A stretch of DNA of 64,000 bases, from positions 62,001 to 126,000 of the forward strand of contig NW_025062286.1 of NCBI RefSeq assembly GCF_000002995.4, written 5' to 3'. The DNA comes from Brugia malayi (Eukaryota; Nematoda; Chromadorea; Rhabditida; Onchocercidae). Shown here piece by piece: positions 1-40,065 of the stretch. The notes beneath the pieces were generated by a model that saw only the letters and a list, made by a program, of their open reading frames with translations, was not told the origin of the DNA and ran no database searches. Position numbers and translations under genes: made by a program. Positions within the stretch are counted from its first letter, which is position 1; every line of letters starts with the position of its first letter.

Positions 1-604
1 TCATTCATATCAGCAAGTACGATCAACGTTGTTAGAATGATAATTTTGTAGAAATCGAGGAAAAAATATACAATAGAAGAAAAAAGTGAATAAATTATAA
101 ATACATGAAATTTGTAATTTTCTGATCTGTACAAAATTTATATTAAAAATATACAAAATTTGATAATTATTACATAATTAATATTTTGTTGCGTAAATGT
201 TATACTATTTAAAGTTATTTCATACTATGGTATATGTAAAGTAAGGTGTACTTAACAGTTCATATAATTGATATTTTTTGTTGCAGTGCAATTTAAACAG
301 TGTTATAATTTAAAAAAATAAAAAAATGTAGAAAAATAAATCATGAACATTGCATGAACTTAAAACTTTTCAAATTTATCTAAGTTATTTCTTTTTCACT
401 CTCTCGTTTAAAAGTTAGTGTGAAATTTCAATTATATATTTTATATCATCTTTTTCTGTTGAGAAATAATCACTTTATATTCGAAAATTTGTTTTAATTT
501 TTGAATCGCAAATTTGATTTTATATTATTCATTCTATATTTGATTAGTTAGTTTAATCAGTTAATGTTGGTAGCATAAAGGAAATATCACTGAAATTTAC
601 TAAG
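1..604. other. AT-rich non-coding, no gene seen
   Basis: No convincing exon is visible on either strand. This is presumably intron of the minus-strand gene whose exon lies at 1240-1450. It ends with the pentamer CTAAG (600-604), which is the left copy of the target duplication of the adjacent solo LTR. Confidence 0.5.
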
Positions 605-1040
605 TGTCGCGAATTATAATTTCGCGAAAAACTTCTAACTGTCACGAAATATTTAAATTATTATATCCAAAACTAACAAATTCCTCTTATCTAATTCCTA
701 AATCTAATTTACATTTACAAAATTCATCTCACACCAAATGATTCAATTTCCGAATATTTTTTGCATTTGTAATTCAGCTATGACTCATACTAATCTATTT
801 CCTCCTTTCATACAATAAAACTAATCTTGTTAAATAGCGATAAAATGTGATAAAAATAATTAACACCTGCAAAACTGTTTAGGGAAATCATTACATTGTT
901 AACAATCTTGTTTTTTCATCCATAGAAATTCTTCCATCTAATTTCCATTCATTAAATCAGTCTTATATATAAACCAACCAATCCTTCTATAACCATCATT
1001 TGCTCTATGTTTTGGGTGATATTAGCATGCGTCTAATACT

Positions 1041-1046
1041 TTATAA
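1041..1046 (+). promoter_or_regulatory. TATA-like box in the solo LTR
   Basis: TTATAA lies 31-36 bases upstream of the first G of the embedded SL1. This is close to the spacing expected if transcription began at the spliced-leader sequence. The identical box in the 3' LTR of the BEL element is at 12442-12447. The role is inferred from position only. Confidence 0.35.
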
Positions 1047-1076
1047 TTTCGTATTATTTGCCTCATGTTAAATAAA

Positions 1077-1098
1077 GGTTTAATTACCCAAGTTTGAG
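1077..1098 (+). other. Exact SL1 spliced-leader sequence inside the LTR
   Basis: Twenty-two bases, beginning GGTTTAATTACCC and ending AAGTTTGAG, match the canonical nematode SL1 exon end to end, in the sense orientation of the element. AATAAA precedes it directly and GTTTATTAATC follows. It is not an SL1 RNA gene, because the SL RNA intron, Sm site and hairpins do not follow it. Confidence 0.95.
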
Positions 1099-1239
1099 GT
1101 TTATTAATCTTCCTACTGTATTGCAACAATTCGAATATCAACCAACAGACAACCTTTCACGACACTAAGGCCTAATTTGAATTTTAAAACTGAATATTAG
1201 AATTATTGATGAAGTAATTGATAATGCAAAATATATAAC

Positions 1240-3448: not shown

Positions 3449-4260
3449 TCAATAAAGACGAAAGAGGAAAAAGAAGTGTAATCTAAAAAAGACGGGAACT
3501 AATCTATTCGCTTTTTTTTTTGATAATTCTAATAATGTTTTTCTTGATCCCAAACATATACTACTATCAGCAAATAAGCCGAAACTACTATTACGAGTAA
3601 AGACGGGGATTGTATGTATATAGGATCTTATAGTTAGAAAAGAACAAAGGGAGGTCGCTAACAAAGAGTAACAAGCAATGAAGCGAAGAGAAAAGCCCAA
3701 TGAGATAATTGACGTACAAAGGACACGATCTGGATATTAAACCAGAACAAAGAAGAGTTGTCAGCGGTATAAGCAGAGCAATTTCTCATACGGATCATTA
3801 CATGGAGTAGATGAATTGATACAGTGGTGTTAGGGCGGGTTTAGGTCGATTAGAGGAAAACGGTTAAGAGGACGAATAAGAAGGTTTAATTCTTAGGACA
3901 ACAACGGGAGGTTTAATTACTCAATTTTGAGGTGTGAAAAACAATCGACGACAACAACGGAGTTTACTCATCCAAATTGAATATTAAACGACGTGAATTA
4001 CGAAAACGACAAAGAAATTCAATGGGTGCAAAAATACAACAGTAAGCACAATATTCTGGCAATAAACGACGACATACAAGCAAAACGACAGTTATAATAC
4101 TCAAGACAATTCAAGGATCAAGAAGAAAAGGGAAAGAAACAACAACAGTCAGCTCGACCAGTTCTACTGATAGTATAACGGAATCGAAGAGAAGAAACGT
4201 GATAAGAATATAAATTAAGTAGGAAACAATTATATAAAATTATATAAAAGGGATCGTCTC
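3449..4260. other. Purine-rich anomalous segment with SL1-like repeats
   Basis: The plus strand is strongly purine-rich for about 800 bp, unlike the neighbouring AT DNA. Many short direct repeats (ACAACAACGG, CGACGAC, AAACGAC) occur between 3895 and 4100. Two imperfect repeats each join ACAACAACGG to a spliced-leader-like sequence, at about 3900-3932 and 3951-3982. Open frames on the minus strand here look like a by-product of composition. This may be a worn-out transposon leader or gag region, but no protein homology was recognised. Confidence 0.4.
3910..3931 (+). other. SL1-like sequence, 20 of 22 positions
   Basis: GGTTTAATTACTCAATTTTG plus AG differs from SL1 at two positions (C to T and G to T). 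A shorter match, GGTTTAATTCTTAGG, lies about 27 bp upstream. There is no SL RNA body behind it. Confidence 0.6.
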
Positions 4261-5919: not shown

Positions 5920-5952
5920 TGTCGTGAAACCTCAAACTTGGGTAATTAAACC
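5920..5952 (-). mobile_element. Exact SL1 copy joined to a BEL LTR terminus
   Basis: On the minus strand, 5952-5931 is an exact 22-nt SL1. It is followed at once by GTTTCACGACA, whose last ten bases equal the terminal ten bases of the BEL LTRs (TTTCACGACA). In the intact LTRs about 55 bases separate these two parts. No LTR-like sequence is recognisable upstream of the SL1 here (5953 and above). It is probably a heavily deleted LTR, or a partial reverse-transcription product that starts at the spliced leader. Confidence 0.6.
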
Positions 5953-6028
5953 ACAAATAAATATTATAACAATGCGTAACGAAAGATATAATTATAAAAC
6001 ATTAAAATGATATCAAAACCACCCCAAA

Positions 6029-6217
6029 ATGCAGAAAGAACAACCGTATGGAGGACAATTGTTTATATGCAGAACTGAACTCCAGATATCTGGCAGAGGA
6101 TATTTAACTGATGTGAAACAAAGACTGCTAATTGCTAACAAAGGGTTTGCTAACGAAGGATTTTTACTAACGAATGTAAAAATAAGTAAATTATTATTGT
6201 TTGACCTGCCAAAATGA
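6029..6217 (+). CDS. Unrecognised 62-codon open frame before the DUSP exons
   Basis: An open frame starts MQKEQPYGGQLFICRTEL and contains two related segments, IANKGFANEGF. It is just upstream of, and in the same direction as, the broken DUSP exons and could be an upstream exon of that gene. No family was recognised and no good donor was found. A chance frame remains quite possible. Confidence 0.25.
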   Translation: MQKEQPYGGQLFICRTELQISGRGYLTDVKQRLLIANKGFANEGFLLTNVKISKLLLFDLPK

Positions 6218-7199: not shown

Positions 7200-8287
7200 G
7201 AAAAGAAGAAATGCAGGGGGTATGCCGTTGTCGTCACATTCATGAGTTATTGAAATAACTGAAACAAGTAACATTAATCCTACATCACTTTGCGAATGGC
7301 ATTATTTGTTCGTAAAAAAAGATTAATTTTCTGAAAATATTTGTAATTTGTGCATTTTGCTTTCTTGAAATTCACTTCTAAAATATTCAATGTCATATTA
7401 TAGTAGTGATTAGGCCTATTGAGGTCATTGAGAATTTGTTAAAGAAAAATTTTCGTTTTAATTTCTGCTTTATGGAAGATACTAGTTCCTTCTCATCCCT
7501 TTTCCGTACTTCTTAAGTGCTCATATTTTACTTCATCGTAGTCGGTAAGGGTCAGTTGATTTCTCTGTATATTTATACGTTTTTTAATTTTATGTTTGAT
7601 AAAAAAAAAAAAACTTTTCAATATTCAGATGTCTACTGAGGCAATCAAAAATGATACTGAGATAATTGCTAACATTACAGTAACTTTCTGAATATAAATT
7701 AGTACAGATTTACTGAGTAATTTAATCTATTATGGTATTTTTAATTTCCATCTTTTCGGGCAGAAAAAAGTACGGCTTCATGTTAGCAGTTCAGAAAGTT
7801 GACATTTTACTTATTAGCAAATACAAAGTGCAAGATTATGTGATAGCAATTATTTATGAATTTTTATTTCTCTTCCTTATTTGTAATTTCATTTATTCAT
7901 TCAAAACGATAAAAAATTGGCAGGCGTTTTTCTTACAAAATCAATAAAATTAGCTGTAAGTCATCCTTTCGTGTGACAATAGAACAAATGAACAACTGAA
8001 TAAGAAACTTAGTATTACTTGTTAAATCAAGTGTATATATCTTTAAAAAAAAAAAAAAAAATTTTCAAAAATTTTCACTGTTCTAAGAGCTTTTTGTAGG
8101 AATATGCTCAGAATACGGATAAATCGCCCACAGTATCTTCCAGCTCACACTAATACATTAAGCTGAAGAAAAAATATGCAAAAAGAACCAACAGATTATT
8201 TGATCCAGTCAGCATACCATATAGCATAATCATACGGCAATAAATTCGATACAAGAATTTATTACAACAACTATACAAATAAATCTG
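7200..8287. other. Non-coding stretch to the BEL truncation point
   Basis: No supported gene. A 71-codon open frame at 7732-7947 is compositionally ordinary and was not accepted. The left end of the BEL element must lie near 8290-8315, because upstream sequence shows no RT or protease similarity. Confidence 0.4.
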
Positions 8288-9067
8288 TTGGTTAATCATG
8301 GATATCAAAACACATATTCGAATTCATTTTTGATTTATGCTAAATCTCGAATTGCTCTAATTAAAGGTATGTCAATTCCTAGACTTGAATTATTATCTGT
8401 ACTAACTGGAGTAAGAGCAGCTCAGTTCGTATTGAAACAATTAAATCTTGAAAATAATCAAGTTACTTTGTGGACGGATTCAAAATGTGTTCTTTACTGG
8501 ATACAGAATTATACAAAGCTACTTCCCAGATTTATACAAAATCGCATCGAAGAAATAAGGAAATCTAACTTCGAATTAAATTACATACCAAGTGATCAAA
8601 ATCCAGCAGATATAGCCACCAAAGGAGTATCACCACTTAAACTCCAAAATTGTAAACAATGGTGGAAAGGACCTCGATGGTTGGAACTCAAGAAATCTGA
8701 ATGGCCAAAGTGCAAACTTCGCTATTCAGGAAACGATGAATTTGCAGAAGCAATTGCTTTGAATTTAACAAAGATGACTCAAACTTTTAAAAGGAATATA
8801 ATTGAATTTATTGACGTATGTCGCTTCAGCAGTTGGACAAAACTAGTTCGAGTAACTGTTTGGACTTTTAGATTTATTAGACAAACCTACAAAAAGAAAC
8901 TAGTGTGGCTAGAACCATTATCCGTAAAAAAGAAATATATGACTAAAGTTGATTACGATATAGCAGAGACTATGCTGATCAGACAGGCCCAATCACGATT
9001 GCTAACGGAAGACGAAAAGGAAAAATGGAATCTATATCTAGATGAAGTGATAACTTATGGAAATTAA
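8288..9067 (+). pseudogene. BEL/Pao pol: RNase H, truncated at N-terminus
   Basis: A 259-codon frame, of which the first residues may be junction sequence. It shows BEL/Pao RNase H features in order: AKSRIALIKGMSIPRLELL, GVRAAQFVLKQL, the catalytic-type LWTDSKCVLYW, NRIEEIRK, and IPSDQNPADIATKGV followed by WWKGPRWL. The first catalytic Asp segment and all reverse transcriptase are absent. After about residue 135 it continues into the linker leading to integrase. It ends at a stop 27 bases before the integrase frame, so RNase H and integrase are no longer one polyprotein. It cannot encode an active enzyme as it stands. Confidence 0.9.
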
Positions 9068-9093
9068 GGAGCCGACTGGAAAATTCAGAATTA

Positions 9094-9519
9094 ATGGACG
9101 AAAGCAAATATCCTATATATTTACCGGATCATAATTATACTACTGATCTTATTATTTTACACAAGCATAATGAATTATATCACGCAGGTATTGCACATAC
9201 GTTATCTGAATTAAGACGAAAATATTGGATACCGAAAGGAAGAGCTGCTGTAAAACGAATCATAAACCTATGCTGTTATTGCATTCGCTGGAAAGCTAAA
9301 CCATTTAAACTGCCAGCGATGCCAAGTTTACCACAAACACGAGTAAAACGATCCAGGACCTTCGAACAAGTCGGCCTTGATTATATGGGTCCTCTTTCAG
9401 TCAAATCTAATACTGGTCTAGTCAAAAGATGGATAGCACTTTTTACGTGCTTCACTACCAGAGCGGTGCATCTTGAAATGCGGAGAATTTATCTGCCGAG
9501 AATTTTTCACATGTTTTAA
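9094..9519 (+). pseudogene. BEL/Pao integrase: zinc-binding domain and first catalytic Asp
   Basis: The HHCC zinc-binding domain is visible: H in [11 protein letters not shown], then CCYC about 30 residues on, with [11 protein letters not shown] between. The catalytic core begins with [14 protein letters not shown], holding the first Asp of the DDE triad, and [10 protein letters not shown]. The frame ends early at 9519 because of an indel near 9490; the next part of the core is in another frame. This is an integrase of the retroviral superfamily that would join LTR DNA to the genome, and is not functional here. Confidence 0.9.
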
Positions 9520-9690
9520 GAAGATTTATCACTCGACGTGGATATCCAAAATTAATATTAAGCGATAATGCAAGCCAATTTCAACTGGTATTCAAAATCA
9601 TTATGGAAGAAAACGCTAACTTTTTGGCTACAAAGGGTATGATATGGAAAAATACTATACCAAGAGCACCATGGGGGGGAGGGGGTGGGT
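9500..9690 (+). pseudogene. Integrase core segment in a shifted frame
   Basis: The frame [20 protein letters not shown] holds the second catalytic Asp (SDN) and leads to NTIPRAPW. The run of G at 9671-9689, where related integrases encode a PWWGG-type motif before the third catalytic residue, looks expanded and creates the second frame change. This piece lies between the two longer open frames and belongs to neither. Confidence 0.8.
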
Positions 9691-11088
9691 GTATATGAAA
9701 GACTTATAGGACTCACAAAAAGGGCATTAAGAAGAGCAATAGGAAGAAAACTTCTAAAGGAAGGAGAATTAATAACATTAATAGTTGAAATAGAAGGAAT
9801 CCTTAATACCCGTCCATTAACTTATGTAGGGTTTGACGACTACAGAATCATTCGTCCAATTGATTTTATATCACCTATGGCTTCATTAGATCTACCAATA
9901 AATTATGATAGTCATCAAGATGAATATACCCCTTATACAATAAAGGCTAAAGATACACTAGTCAAATATTGGACTTCCACTCTTACCACATTAGATGTCT
10001 TTTGGAAGTTGTGGAAAGAAGAATATCTTACAAGTCTTAGAGAACGCACACAGAGAGAATTAAAATCACCTAGAATAGTAGAAAAAAGAGTACCACATGA
10101 AAATGAGATAGTATTACTAAATGAACCAGAAATACCTCGTAGTGTATGGAAATTGGCAAGGATAATAAAAATTAATCGAGGATGGGATGGAAAAATAAGG
10201 AGTGCAACAATACAATTACTGAGTGGAAAACAAATCGATCGATCAATAAATATGCTTTATCCTATGGAAATAGATGCTACTGAAGATAAAGAAGAAAAAG
10301 TGGAAGATGAACCAGAAGAACCCATTGCTCGACGAACCAGAAGTGCTAAAAAATCACAAACTACAGTCTATGCAAAGGACAAGTCTAATCTTTTGATAAA
10401 AACTTTATCATTAATAACGATGATGTCATTAATACCAAGACAGGTATTAGCCAACAATAGCTGTAATTGGATTACTGGAGTACCCTTTAATATTCCTGAA
10501 AAATGGAATTGTGAAGAAATTATTCACAAAAATGCTACATATCACAAAGTGGATGTGTACACACGCACCCATGTAAGAATACCAGCTATAAAATGTAACA
10601 ACATTACACGGACTGTATGCACGAAAGCTTTTCTCAGAATATCGCTATCGGTAGTATCAGACCATACGTCTACTATCGCAACTTCCTCACAATTCTGCAG
10701 ATATTTAAATGTTCGAAAACAAATGAACGGAATTGGACTAATTCAATCTTCTCCTAATCAATGGATAACGAATAAGGAAATACAATACTCCTATGGATGG
10801 TTAGGAGTTAACTGTCAATCAACGTCAAACTTCATATTAACTCAAGGAGAAATTCTCCTCTATGATGGAAGAGGGTTAGTCTCTAACCTTGAAGATATAA
10901 AAGACTGTTCGACACAAAAGGATGAATGCATAACGAATACTAGCATTATCATATGGAATAGCAATGATACGACCAATCATTGTTTATATCGAAAGATCGG
11001 AAGATTCAAGGCTACAAAGTATAACAACCACTTCATCATCGATGAGATACAAGTATCGCTTATAATTGATAAAAACCCCCTGTATTAA
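9685..11088 (+). pseudogene. Integrase C-terminus fused in frame to an env-like N-terminal part
   Basis: The 467-codon frame starts with VYERLIGLTKRALRRAIGR, which contains the third catalytic Glu (YER). It continues through ILNTRPLTYV and the BEL-specific C-terminal region (YWTSTLTTLDVFWKLWKEEY, VPHENEIVLL, MLYPMEI). After an acidic stretch and a basic RRTRSAKK comes a hydrophobic signal-like segment at about residues 233-252. A Cys-rich ectodomain-like part follows with several N-glycosylation sequons (NAT, NIT, NTS, NDT). The frame stops at 11088 and the rest is in another frame. Some BEL/Pao elements of nematodes carry env genes; I could not assign this one to a known glycoprotein family. 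Confidence 0.8.
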
Positions 11089-11123
11089 ACACCAAAATTT
11101 GTAGATTCACCTCTCCAATTTTA

Positions 11124-12020
11124 ATGCAAGGCGATATAGTTATTGAACTAGACGTTGAAGATGACTCGAACTCTATTACAAAATTCAAACGAAGAATAAC
11201 AAATAAACTATTAATGATGGAAAAGGCTCCGGATAGAAAGTACAATCCTGAAAATGTAAAACTTCAATACCTTTCTGATTCACTAAGGCAAGAATTCCTT
11301 CAACAACTCAAAGAAACACAGCAGAGAAGTTGCCAAAATAGAAATAACCTATTACTTTTGATCAAATGGCTATCAATCAGCAATCCTACCCTTGCCACGA
11401 AACTAATACTTCAAAGAAACGATGTGATAGCTAAAAGAATTAACGGAAATTTGATGGTGGCTCCTTGCAAATCAGAACAATCAGCAATCGAAAATATCGA
11501 ATTCAAAGGAGATTTAATAAGTAAGTTTGAAATTGAGAGAATTAATGCAGAATTGGAAATCCTAACTCAAACCCAAAAAACAATTAATTCAATACCACAT
11601 CAAATGAAGGATGAACTCTTTTGGCAAGAAATCTCTGAAGAAGGAGAAGAAATTATCAAACAAATGGAAAAGGAATTCGATGAAATTGTTCTACCGATAC
11701 AAGAAGAATTTGAAAACTTGATAACAAACTGGAAATTGATTTTTATCTGTATAATAATCGTGACATTATTAACTATTTTAATTATTATTAAGTGGAAATT
11801 TAAATTAGTTCAATCTCTCCTTTGTAATACTTCAAAACGAAATTCAAATCAAACTACCATCATTACTCTCCCTATAGAAGCACAACACACTCAATTTCTA
11901 ACTAAAGAGAAATCCCACCTATTAAACTTCATACATTTAACTATATACCTCAAAATCACTCTCTCAAAATTACTTCTTAAAACAATTTCTCTCCCCCTTT
12001 GGGAGTGTCGCGAATTATAA
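11124..12020 (+). pseudogene. Env-like C-terminal part with transmembrane anchor
   Basis: The 298-codon frame continues the env-like region after a frame break. It is rich in charged helical sequence (LRQEFLQQLKETQQ; EISEEGEEIIKQMEKEFDE) and has one strong transmembrane segment at about residues 205-228 (LIFICIIIVTLLTILIII) followed by a basic WKFK and a cytoplasmic tail. The last codons run into the LTR, which begins at 12006. The topology fits a type I membrane glycoprotein whose stalk precedes the anchor. It is disrupted relative to the upstream part and is described only as an old copy. Confidence 0.65.
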
Positions 12021-12565
12021 TTTCGCGAAAAACTTCTAACTGTCACGAAATATTTAAATTATTATATCCAAAACTAACAAATTCCTCTTATCTAATTCCT
12101 AAATCTAATTTACATTTACAAAATTCATCTCACACCAAATGATTCAATTTCCGAATATTTTTTGCATTTGTAATTCAGCTATGACTCATACTAATCTATT
12201 TCCTCCTTTCATACAATAAAACTAATCTTGTTAAATAGCGATAAAATGTGATAAAAATAATTAACACCTGCAAAACTGTTTAGGGAAATCATTACATTGT
12301 TAACAATCTTGTTTTTTCATCCATAGAAATTCTTCCATCTAATTTCCATTCATTAAATCAGTCTTATATATAAACCAACCAATCCTTCTATAACCATCAT
12401 TTGCTCTATGTTTTGGGTGATATTAGCATGCGTCTAATACTTTATAATTTCGTATTATTTGCCTCATGTTAAATAAAGGTTTAATTACCCAAGTTTGAGG
12501 TTTATTAATCTTCCTACTGTATTGCAACAATTCGAATATCAACCAACAGACAACCTTTCACGACA
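12006..12565 (+). mobile_element. 3' LTR of the BEL element, SL1-bearing
   Basis: 560 bp, with the same start and end as the solo LTR at 605-1164 and no difference found by eye, which suggests recent activity of the subfamily. A short pyrimidine/G tract (CTCCCCCTTTGGGAG) precedes it. It holds AATAAA and the exact SL1 at 12478-12499. Confidence 0.93.
12478..12499 (+). other. Exact SL1 spliced-leader sequence in the 3' LTR
   Basis: Second exact 22-nt sense copy of SL1, at the same LTR position as in the solo LTR (offset 472 from the LTR start), again between AATAAA and GTTTATTAATC. Confidence 0.95.
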
Positions 12566-13060
12566 TAGAAGGCATTTTGATTATTTCATTAACTCATACC
12601 ATTTCTCTGCAAATATAACAATATCACTAGAAGATATTTTGATTCTCTACAGATTAAACAATATCACTAGAAGACATTTCGATCAATTCATGCCACTTCT
12701 CTACTGATAAAACAATATCACTAGAAGACATTTTGATTAATTCACGCCATTTCTCTGCAAATATAACAATATCACTAGAAGGCATTTTTTATTCATTAAC
12801 TCATACCATTTCTCTACAGATATAACAATATCACTAGAAGACATTTTGATTAATTCATTAACTCATACCATTTCTCTACAGATCACTAGAAGGCATTTTT
12901 TATTCATTAACTCATACCATTTCTCTACAGATATAACAATATCACTAGAAGACATTTTGATTAATTCATGTCACTTCTCCACTGATATAACAATATCACT
13001 AAAAGATATTTTGATTATTTCATGCCACTTCTCTGTAAATATAACAAGATCACGAGACGA
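12566..13060 (+). repeat. Minisatellite block next to the BEL element
   Basis: Degenerate tandem units with the core ATATAACAATATCACTAGAA, of the same family as the array at 60.6-64 kb. The block starts in mid-unit directly at the LTR end. Units are more diverged and more variable in length than in the large array (for example GGCATTTTTTATTCATTAAC). Confidence 0.9.
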
Positions 13061-13193
13061 TTTTTTTTTTTTGATTTTTTTGATTAATAAGCATATGACT
13101 AATTGATTTCTTTTTCTTATGTTGGATTATCGCGATATTGAATTCACGACATTCCCAATGGGGTAGGAGAAACCTTGAATGAGAGGTTTACAC

Positions 13194-13724
13194 TGTCGCG
13201 AATTATAATTTCGCGAAAACTCCTATCTAAAAATATATATCATAAATTATCTCTACATAAATCTAATTTCTTATGATTTTGTCATGTGATTTTCATCATA
13301 GATACGTTCAGTTCTCACATTGTAAATTCTCAATTTTTTTACACTTCCGACTCTTCAGACATTATAAAACAATCTTACAGTATCTTAAATTATCTCTCTT
13401 TAAATCTAATTTTTTTGGTTTATTACACATGTAATCTCATATCATAATTTCTCAATTCTCATGAACATTTCCGATTCTTCACATTTTTATCTTAGACACG
13501 CTCAATTACCACTCATATAAAATTCAATCCTAAAAAATTACATTGGTTATTGTTTTTAAGGTCGATTACTACTCGATTTCAAATCCTCCAGTTTTCTTTT
13601 ATAAATTTCTTCTCTTTTTATTGCACGGTTTGTTAACATTACGTTCTAGAAAAAAAAATAAAACTTTATTAATCTTCCTACTGTATTGCAACTATTCAAT
13701 ATCAACCAAATAACTTTCACGACA
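13194..13724 (+). mobile_element. Diverged BEL LTR without SL1
   Basis: 531 bp beginning TGTCGCGAATTATAATTTCG and ending AACTTTCACGACA. The middle is considerably diverged from the 560-bp LTRs. At the SL1 site it reads AATAAAACTTTATTAATC, so SL1 is absent. The flanks (TACAC and CTATC) do not match, so this is not a clean solo LTR. It may be the 5' LTR of the element whose integrase remnant lies at 14043-14380. Confidence 0.85.
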
Positions 13725-13956
13725 CTATCCAGTTTAATTCATTCAAATATTGATTCTTATATTTTCTCTAATATTACATTTCAAAACTCGTTATGCACTT
13801 TCTTAAGCAAATAACGGCAGTGAAAGTGCATTCAACAGAATTTCACAGTTGTAATATTCTATGATGTATTATTGATTGATTTACGAATCTCTGAAAATTT
13901 TACTTTGATAGTTTGAATTTAATACATTATCATTTGATGTGAAAATGTGACAAGAA

Positions 13957-33298: not shown

Positions 33299-36200
33299 GT
33301 GCTGCGATCAGCTGTTTTCATTGAAGTAATCGATGAGTTTCGGCAGTTTTCACGTGAATACTGCATTGAAGCTCTGGCAACGATTTTACGGAATTAAGTT
33401 CCATTACTGAAGTAATGTTTCAGATATTGCAATGTTGTTATAAGCTTTCAATTTCTGATGTCCCAATGAAAATGTAGCAGTGCATTTCTAATTCTATGAA
33501 TTAGGAATTATTTCCTAGGTGAAATTAATATCGGAGAAAGAATGTTTGGAATTGTCGGGTTCATTGATGAGTGTTCTAAATTGATGCTTATTGGCTCTGG
33601 AATACTCCTTAAAAAATGAAAATAAAAATGAAAGAAGCACTCAAGCCATTGTGCATGTGCATTTGCAAATGGCAAGTTTGTTCGTGCTTTGTTGTACATT
33701 CATGAACACATTGGCGCAAGTAAGTGCTGTGAATGATTTGATGAACTGAACTGTTTTTGGTTAATGAACTAAAGCCATTTAAAATAAATTTCTAGTCAAA
33801 AATTTTTCATTTATCTGTTCAGAAGTTTAGAATATAAATATCATGTACTTTTTATCGGGATCTCGTTTTAGTTGGGTCATTTTAATTTAGTTTATCTCAT
33901 CTAACACTGAATCTAAATATCTGTTTTCAGAAAGTGTAAATTATGTAGTCGAAGCTGCTGTTTCATTTGCGCAAGGTTATCCTGATTGCGAAGAGTTGAA
34001 AACGATGATTGAAGCTTTGCAGCAATTCGGTGCATCACCAGCAGAACGAATTGAAGACAATCTTGGTGGCTTAGTCAAGCAGGTAGCGCGCTTCTGAGTT
34101 ATTGAGGGTATCATTTATTCATGGTGTGTCGCGAATTATAATTTCGCTAAAACTTCTAACTAATTTCATACTATCATAAATCATCTCTTCTTTTCGTTGT
34201 AAACAATTCCAATTCTTTACACATATACTTTTTCTGTAAAATTGAAATTAGCTTTCATTTTAATCTTTTTGTTGTAAACCCTTTCAATTCTTTACACATA
34301 TGATTTTTATCCTAGACATGCCCAATCCTCACTCATATAAATTCAATTCTAACAAAAAAAAGAAAAATCATTATCATCATTGTCGACTACTACTCTGTTA
34401 ACCAATATCAATTTCTCCGATCTTCTTCTTTAATATAAATTTCGTCTCTCTTAATTTTATTGCTCTGTTTATTAATACTACGTTTGCAAAAAATAAAGGT
34501 TTATTAATCTTCCTACTATGTTGCAACTATTCGAATATCAACCGGACAAACCTTTCACGACATGGTGTGCTTACCATTGAGTCACTTTTAAATCATGTGC
34601 TTACCATTGAGTCACTTTTAAATCACAATTACTAAGCGAGATATTATTTGGCCAATAAGTTTAGAAGTTCTTAATATGCTAGATAAGCTAGATAGTTAAT
34701 CTATTGTTCATATCAAGCTTTCCAGAGAATTAATTTGTAGTTACACCCTGCAATCCTGACGTTGGTTTCGGTTTTCGAATGATTCAGAATGAAGAAAAAA
34801 GTAGATCCAATGGCGGATTTTTTTTCGAACTTGCTGAAATTCTTGAATTTTCATTTCGTTTGAGAATATGATACGGGCATTCTTGCTGATAATGATGCGG
34901 TTTGCATTTTTATTATTATTATGGTTGATTTATGCAGTTGCGCTAGAATGATATAATGCTTGTAATATATTAATATTAATATACATACAAATAAGTAAAC
35001 AATATAGAAATTTCAATTATTTTTCAGCTTTATGCTTAAGAATCATTAGGTGAAGAGCATCACAAGCATCTTATTATGTGAAACCTCCACAGAATGTCGA
35101 ACACTTGCTACTTCTTAGCGCTCCACTTGATGACTTGATCACTGCACTATTTGTGATAATAAACACTTTTGAATCAGGTAAATTCCAGTTTATATTAAAG
35201 GTAGTAAATTACATTAGTTTTGTTGCAGAAAATTAGTTGATATGCAGAAAATTGGCGAGTAAATTATTGCTATTTGCTGCTCGTAATAATGCTGTAGTGC
35301 CGGATATTTTTGAAATCTCTCAAGAAAAAAATTTGTGTATCTAGTAAAAAAATCGATAGTTACAGTAATACTTTTCAGGTAGATATGAAAATGAAAACAA
35401 ATACATTCCAACATCTACTAGAACAAATGACAGCAGCAGGTGATAAGATGAGAGCGTTTTGAAAAATTTACTCGAAAAAAGGTAATTAAAATAAAAATGA
35501 AATACAACACATGAATATTATAAATTTTATTAATTTAACCTGTATACTTTCATTTTCTGCTTAACTTTAACTACTTTCGAGCATTTTTTTTAAAAAGCTA
35601 TGGCTACATAGTGGGAAATTAAGAACTTTCATGATCGTGCCGAATGCTATATGTTTGTAAAGCATACTTTATTAGTATATTAGTACTTTAATGTAAACAG
35701 TAATCTCTGTTATTGTTATCGTCAATCAAAAATTAGCTATGGGCAATTATATATGCTTGAGATTTGAATTCTTTGCAGAGAAAGATTTCAATCTGGAGTT
35801 GAGTCATGTCTGTTCGTCTTGGATTTTAGAGATATTGGCCGGAGCTTTTCCAGATGCTTGCACAAACTTCCATCACACCTGTACATCAGCGAGCAAATTC
35901 AGCTAAAATGGCTGTAGATAAGATTTATTTTATGTCCTTATTTTTGTCTTTTTTGTAGTGTAGTATAAAAAAATTGTTAAAGGAATTCAATTTCAGGTAA
36001 TGCTGTAATAAATGCTCTTGAATGAGGTAACCTGATAATGCTGTAATAAATGTTGCTCTTGAAACTTGCCAGTGATTTTTAGCCGAGGACTTTTTACATT
36101 TGATTCTGTATGTGCATCATCATTGTGCTGAATTTGATTTATTTCAGTTCAAAACTTGCAACGTAAATTCTATTCTGTTTTTTTTTTTTTTTTTTTCGGC

Positions 36201-39590: not shown

Positions 39591-40065
39591 ACGATGATTA
39601 CGTAAACTCGACCTCAACAAGACCAACGAGGCTGCAATGGTTTAAGAAGTGAATGATTCTCTCAGCGCCTCACTGGGTCACACCAAAACCAACACTCGCA
39701 ACCTGCGGCGGGGAACGGCACAACTGTCTGTCCCCAAACGCAAAAATTATGCTGTTGGCGAGTCCCAACTCGAGACTGCCACACGGGTCAGTCACTGCCC
39801 ACAAGTGCAATGGGCCGACCTCACCGTGGAGTACTCGCCTTCTTGATCGCGAGTCACCTCCCAGCCAAGTAAGTTTAATCGACAACCGCAAACTTGTCAT
39901 CATTTTTCCCTGCTCACCATTCCCGACGGGATACTCTCTTCGCAAATTGCTATTCCTCTTTGTTTCTCTGCTGGCATCAACGCCTGTTTACTCTTTTCTT
40001 CACTCTCTTTCTCTTTCTCCTCTCCCTTACATTACTCATCTCCAAATGACATTTTGCTGACTCGC
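39590..40065. other. GC-rich island of unknown nature
   Basis: Roughly 39590-39950 is far richer in G and C than anything else in the window. It is open in several frames at once: plus 39649-39846 and 39653-40060, and minus 39945-39670, as expected for GC-rich DNA with few stops. It contains CGAGT-rich short repeats (GGCGAGTCCC, ACTCGAG, GAGTACTCGCC, CGCGAGTCACC). After 39950 it grades into a CT-rich tract. No rRNA, tRNA or protein family was recognised. It could be a regulatory CpG-type island, a non-autonomous transposon or foreign DNA. Confidence 0.5.

Follow-up and report, generated by a model that had tools for sequence, protein, structure and literature searches.

Spliced leader SL1 in the long terminal repeats of BEL/Pao retrotransposons of Brugia malayi: a probable inherited module near the predicted RNA start

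Introduction

A 64 000-nucleotide stretch of the Brugia malayi genome, referred to here as the window, carries SL1 inside long terminal repeats (LTRs). This 22-nt leader is normally trans-spliced to the 5' ends of worm mRNAs, and its location here raises the question of how a leader came to lie within a retrotransposon and what it may do there. Trans-splicing should be harmful to an LTR retrotransposon because the 5' copy of R is replaced, and a leader built into the LTR would offer a simple, testable escape from this difficulty. In the main text of their article, Foster et al. 2020 (PMC7181701) counted 316 SL1 signatures in the B. malayi genome. Of these, 120 lie outside the SL-RNA arrays, and 60 of the 120 are no further than 1 kb from a PAO element, in some cases with same-sense SL1 on both sides of it. 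The authors inferred that expressed PAO RNA had received leaders and had then integrated. The core of the finding, SL1 beside PAO by trans-splicing followed by integration, has thus been known since 2020, and what is added here is mainly the anatomy of the LTRs, the inheritance of SL1 within them and a chimera between two LTR families.

Results

SL1-bearing LTRs in the window

A pattern search of the whole window located three exact copies of the SL1 22-mer (Table 1), and none was present in 100 rounds of shuffling the window. Two are the sense-strand sites from which a sequence-only reading of this DNA had set out, and both occupy nt 473-494 of their LTR. The third lies in an LTR of a different family (C) and had been missed by that reading. 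The first LTR (560 bp) runs from TGTCG to CGACA and is flanked on both sides by the 5-bp target duplication CTAAG, the TG..CA ends and short duplication being features looked for in assigning it to BEL/Pao. As this duplication is its own, the repeat is a solo LTR, and the idea that the two SL1-bearing sense-strand LTRs form the ends of one element was rejected. A matching target duplication was also looked for at the second LTR (L003), and none was found. The two copies had been described as independent; they are indeed separate insertions, but their LTR sequences are identical over 562 bp and so do not count as independent sequence evidence. One recent sequence has inserted twice.

The second LTR, which holds the SL1 copy at 12478, directly follows Pao coding remains that are pol- and env-like. 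Pfam recognised the end of a Peptidase_A17 domain (PF05380, E=1.4e-14), an integrase H2C2 domain (E=4.5e-10), DUF5641 (E=3.9e-15) and, weakly, an integrase core (rve, E=6.1e-5, below the curated cut-off), and the Pao peptidase and BEL-type domains place the remains in BEL/Pao. No Pfam match to a reverse transcriptase was obtained in the eight window frames tested, and the element looks 5'-truncated. The env-like ORF before the 3' LTR (11076-12017, +) gave a weak Pfam match (E=0.0069) to a herpesvirus glycoprotein B ectodomain, which falls short of the curated cut-off. A minisatellite of ~54-bp units (12566-13125) comes directly after the 3' LTR, and LTRs L009 and L011 are also followed by similar units. 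Elsewhere, the window contains A'-type LTR remains (34127-34562, +), a family D LTR fragment (2705-2784, +) and a U1 snRNA gene (39709-39876, -; RF00003, 108.7 bits). A separate repeat, found at 3910-3985 and at locus L128, carries an SL1-like 22-mer, and the window copy seems, by eye, to be followed ~50 nt later by another, degraded SL1-like stretch.

Table 1. Positions of SL1, LTR parts and element remains in the window
Feature	Position	Strand	Basis or remark
Solo chimeric LTR (605-1164) with CTAAG duplications (600-604, 1165-1169)	600..1169	+	
LTR 5' end, A' type, 33 nt	605..637	+	94% to SL1-less LTR at 13194
U3 promoter part and SL1, from LTR family B	644..1102	+	L074 match in two pieces
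TATAAT, starting 35 nt before SL1	1042..1047	+	
AATAAA (poly(A)-signal-like), abutting SL1	1071..1076	+	
Exact SL1 exon	1077..1098	+	exact 22-mer match
U5, A' type	1097..1164	+	68/68 nt to SL1-less LTR L091 (LTR nt 493-560)
SL1-like 22-mer, 2 mismatches, in repeat F (related to L128; no LTR status established)	3910..3931	+	
Partial family C LTR, end SL1-GTTTCACGACA	5920..6132	-	96% to L049 over 216 nt
Exact SL1 exon in family C LTR	5931..5952	-	exact 22-mer match
BEL/Pao coding remains, several frames	8228..12017	+	Pfam
Identical chimeric LTR, 3' LTR of the BEL/Pao coding remains	12006..12565	+	
Exact SL1 exon	12478..12499	+	exact 22-mer match
A'-type LTR without SL1	13194..13727	+	

SL1 as an integral part of several LTR families

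The 86.8-Mb assembly (139 contigs) holds 303 exact SL1 copies, against a chance expectation of ~1.6e-5 from base composition alone. These were split by the third base after SL1, which is A in the SL RNA genes read; 91 copies do not continue in this manner, and 85 of the 91 continue GTTT. Loci L001-L090 were chosen for SL1 followed by GTTT, allowing up to one mismatch across the 26-mer, among the 100 of 114 such sites listed. They provided 95 sites after duplicate reads of L022 were dropped; one more was read later (L134) and four listed sites were not included. Sorted by the sequence after SL1, the 95 sites all belong to one of three U5 types, with 61 short (S), 22 D and 7+5 others (labels: bS 60, ?S 1, cS 5, bA 7, dD 17, cD 2 and ?D 3). 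A search for SL1 in the viral_contigs and genome_contigs collections returned no matches.

A TGTCG start together with a perfect 5-bp target duplication was found in 27 of the 73 SL1 copies with a readable LTR end (22 of family B, three chimeric and two of family C), with 27 different 3' flanks; for L076 and L085, both among the 27, the duplication lies around a two-LTR structure. Many of the remaining 46 copies are joined to element interiors or partly covered by the fetched flank. Because of these starts and duplications SL1 is to be seen as an integral part of the LTR. It is present in many copies, in the sense orientation, and keeps a single position within each family, which supports the earlier reading's placing of it inside the LTR. 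The family B LTR has the layout TGTCGTGAAA...SL1-GTTTCACGACA, SL1 ending 11 nt from the LTR end. The family D LTR runs TGTC...TTTTACA, with SL1 ~265 nt in and ~190 nt before the end, and a target duplication was present in 5 of 22 copies. Relatives of family C and L129, found through the sequence upstream of SL1 (40 of 72 candidates scored), keep SL1, often in decayed form, between a U3 end of the GATTTGTY type and a U5 that mostly bears AATAAA; it was recognisable in 13 of 15 such relatives fetched (one exact; two of the 13 B-type) but not in L171 and L175. Six tandem SL1 copies at 2,031-bp spacing were observed on one strand of G000:C136:10316015-10326195 (L028-L032), with family B flanks in all five copies fetched.

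The linkage of SL1 to pol was analysed through Peptidase_A17, whose 137 genome matches merge into 114 loci, counting the 91 exact SL1 only and leaving out sites with mutated SL1. Same-strand exact SL1 lies within 6 kb of 19 loci, on both sides in six, and six loci have opposite-strand SL1 only. Where both sides carry it, SL1 precedes the domain by 2.9-3.1 kb and follows it at 2.4-2.6 kb (four loci) or 3.9 kb (two loci). The other 95 of 114 loci have no same-strand exact SL1 within this distance, and SL1 is thus an optional part of the element.

Position of SL1 relative to the predicted RNA start

Motif positions were counted leaving out L029-L031 of the tandem array. AATAAA abuts SL1 in 54 of 58 family B copies, of which 39 have a TATAAW starting at -35 and most others one at -33, -34, -36 or -37; the chimeric LTRs combine an abutting AATAAA with TATAAW at -35 in 7 of 7. 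TATAAW lies at -23 in 17 of 22 family D copies, with AATAAA at +31 in 20 of 22, and at -17 in four of five family C copies. As the usual TATA-to-start distance is ~30 nt, RNA starts are predicted at ~-5 to +13 relative to SL1 in the three LTR families. Given the A+T content of the genome (72%) and the non-independence of copies belonging to the same family, this spacing amounts in effect to three observations.

The window LTR as a chimera of two families

Nucleotides 40-455 and 448-498 of the window LTR, including promoter and SL1, match the family B copy L074 at 97% and 100%, respectively, ~80 nt of L074 being absent between the two pieces, and the family B part overlaps the A' U5 by AGGTTT. 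By these matches, the window LTR is a chimera, in which a family B promoter with SL1 sits between the ends of the mostly SL1-less A' family. Seven chimeric LTRs were read in total (L001, L003, L007, L012, L027, L063 and L064), of which L063 and L064 are probably one element. When the window U5 was searched genome-wide, with the best 40 of 91 candidates scored, these seven were the ones that carry SL1 and the other 33 lack it. AATAAAG directly precedes U5 in 32 of these 33 and the U5 start is GTTTATTAAT in 27. Given both these SL1-less LTRs and the Peptidase_A17 loci without a nearby exact copy, SL1 is dispensable here.

In L063, ~35 nt of A' type stand before the first base of the B LTR. The arrangement suggests that a B LTR inserted into an A' LTR and that a jump at AGGTTT came later; the 3' junction of the chimera could equally well be explained by first-strand transfer by way of SL1. 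The comparison of A' and chimeric LTRs was not accepted as proof of capture, since SL1 and the family B U3 came in jointly, and a B LTR inside an A' LTR with a later AGGTTT junction would yield the same product. The suggestion that the window's own element had been trans-spliced was not supported; its SL1 came with the family B promoter through the chimera.

An exon without the SL RNA body

SL1 sites could also be insertions of SL RNA genes, or artefacts of assembly, and the SL arrays are indeed large in this genome. The Rfam model of the SL1 RNA (RF00198) matched the SL arrays L176 and L177 and the isolated gene L130. However, it gave no match in the window, nor in the seven SL1-bearing repeat loci tested (L001, L025, L049, L054, L125, L128 and L129), and the ~100-nt RNA with an SL body that would mark an SL1 RNA gene was not found in any of them. 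The earlier reading had named an SL RNA gene insertion with its body attached as the result that would overturn it; such an origin was rejected, and together with the 27 different 3' flanks of the target-duplicated copies this makes the insertion or artefact explanation extremely improbable.

The repeat loci tested thus carry the 22-nt exon alone. Since the exon is present without its body, trans-spliced RNA would be the likeliest ultimate source of the SL1 in the LTRs. To this extent the proposal that a retrotransposon RNA was trans-spliced and reverse-transcribed into the LTR would be supported, with spliced RNA as the likeliest source. Among the LTRs examined, no unambiguous pre-capture LTR was found. 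L151, with a rearranged SL1, was not accepted as such a site, as it has the duplication AATGA and the 3' flank in common with L016, and L139, a family D copy without most of SL1, may represent either the ancestral site or a 15-nt deletion.

Inheritance and diversity of SL1

L131 and L132, which align only within the LTR (93% over 419 bp), have two SL1 substitutions in common. Three further pairs, L141/L142, L143/L144 and L088/L134, have one SL1 substitution in common each and likewise match over the LTR only; such single substitutions could be recurrent mutation. L135 and L136 also have an SL1 variant in common and were not counted as an independent pair, their match extending ~11 nt beyond the LTR end. 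As independent insertions carry the same SL1 variants, these alignments show that SL1 is handed down as part of the LTR instead of being renewed in each cycle, and strict renewal at each cycle was rejected for family D. The claim that the element encodes its own leader was thereby supported, because the variants are inherited and the TATA spacing predicts a start near SL1.

Searches anchored outside SL1 at the LTR end of families B and C, which exclude G before the 22-mer, gave 60 exact and four one-mismatch SL1 among the 100 of 102 rows listed, with three rows of rearranged SL1 (two LTRs), 33 others and 30 control matches. The corresponding search for family D (all 98 rows; G and C before the 22-mer excluded) gave 13 exact, 14 one-mismatch, nine two-mismatch and two four-mismatch SL1, two with a doubled TTTGAG, one deleted and 57 others, with 48 control matches. 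In L124 and in L137/L138 a second TTTGAG follows SL1, as if a leader had been spliced into an SL1-bearing LTR between CCCAAG and TTTGAG; slippage explains this as well.

Nucleotide diversity (pi) of SL1 was compared with that of the preceding 60 nt. Family D (39 copies reduced to 31 distinct sequences; L084, L086 and L137-L139 excluded) gave 0.098 for SL1 and 0.089 for the preceding stretch; its wider flanks were more diverse than SL1 (0.136 for the 150 columns upstream and 0.199 for the 50 downstream), and 104 of 201 windows along the alignment were equally or more conserved. The values for family C were 0.015 and 0.017 (n=6). Family B gave 0.0058 and 0.0298 (58 copies merged to n=47 by identical 30-nt 3' flank, L029-L031 excluded), in loci chosen for SL1 with at most one mismatch and with 16 of 155 alignment windows as low as SL1.

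Discussion

The SL1 exon is probably an inherited module of the LTRs of a BEL/Pao group, placed near the predicted RNA start, with R as its likeliest job. Its probable origin is one capture, or a few, from element RNA that had been trans-spliced and was then reverse-transcribed. Since then it has been passed on as LTR sequence, as the variants common to independent insertions show, and has been brought into another LTR family by recombination, as the A'/B chimera of the window shows. The positions of TATA and AATAAA suggest that SL1 lies near the expected RNA start and the expected R. If SL1 is R, an RNA with SL1 at its 5' end, whether transcribed or trans-spliced, would meet an identical 22-nt sequence close to its 3' end, and first strand transfer would therefore still work. 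Against this explanation count the diversity of SL1 within family D, which is about that of the 60 nt before it, the loci and LTRs that do without SL1, and the long (8-kb) RNA of the C. elegans element Cer1, which was not trans-spliced (PMC3315495). We put forward tentatively, and with more doubt than confidence, the stronger proposal that SL1 is the R region of a lineage of LTR retrotransposons tolerant of trans-splicing, to which trans-splicing would supply a universal R for the whole element group. Were this true, host leader and LTR having one 22-nt sequence in common, any element RNA, transcribed or trans-spliced, would complete first strand transfer, and element RNA could recombine with other families through SL1.

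Alternatively, SL1 might be re-written from host SL RNA in each cycle, every genomic RNA being trans-spliced and strong-stop cDNA copying a fresh leader into new LTRs. The near uniformity of SL1 in families B and C would fit such renewal, as would its low diversity in family B, though the loci were chosen for near-exact SL1, and the doubled TTTGAG of L124 and L137/L138, for which slippage is equally possible. However, independent insertions of family D carry the same SL1 variants, the two substitutions of L131/L132 among them, and the TATA positions leave scant space for an outron; we thus regard renewal as quite improbable. It is also unlikely that SL1 is kept as mimicry of trans-spliced host mRNA, serving translation or stability with any part in strand transfer incidental. 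The TATA-to-SL1 spacing would agree with mimicry, and so would the finding that families B, C and D, although their neighbouring sequence differs, all have canonical SL1 as the most frequent form. A transcribed copy of SL1, on the other hand, would be without the trimethyl cap.

The predominance of the canonical form, while the adjacent sequence was replaced or diverged, in turn argues against a passive fossil, that is, a chance capture which has since hitchhiked with the promoter and has no function. There is nevertheless little or no extra conservation of SL1 within families C and D, SL1 variants propagate, and SL1-less LTR families exist alongside, all of which would suit a fossil, and we see this as a possible reading without favouring it. 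An inherited LTR module near the RNA start remains the reading that we prefer, and it would mean that SL1-primed cDNA libraries and SL1-based annotation can catch element RNA that was never trans-spliced.

In comparison with known systems, the main text of Foster et al. 2020 describes SL1 flanking PAO, whereas here SL1 is placed inside the LTR near the predicted start region; nothing was found there, supplements aside, on target duplications, inherited variants or an LTR chimera. Neither a fixed, inherited SL1 in an LTR near the start region nor such a chimera was found in the literature searched, again with supplements aside. Tas and other nematode BEL/Pao elements (PMC3118150, PMC554778) likewise have BEL/Pao pol domains, with env reported for Tas and Cer7, and the word 'spliced' is absent from the main text of both articles. 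Cer1 of C. elegans (PMC3315495), another LTR element of a nematode, has a trans-splice acceptor for SL1; it differs in being Gypsy/Ty3-related and in having SL1 on a spliced 2.4-kb mRNA. In Hydra, a spliced leader was reported on ~30% of the long reads of transposable elements (PMC12220107). There, however, the leader is described on the RNA and is not placed in an LTR, whereas in B. malayi it lies inside the LTR itself.
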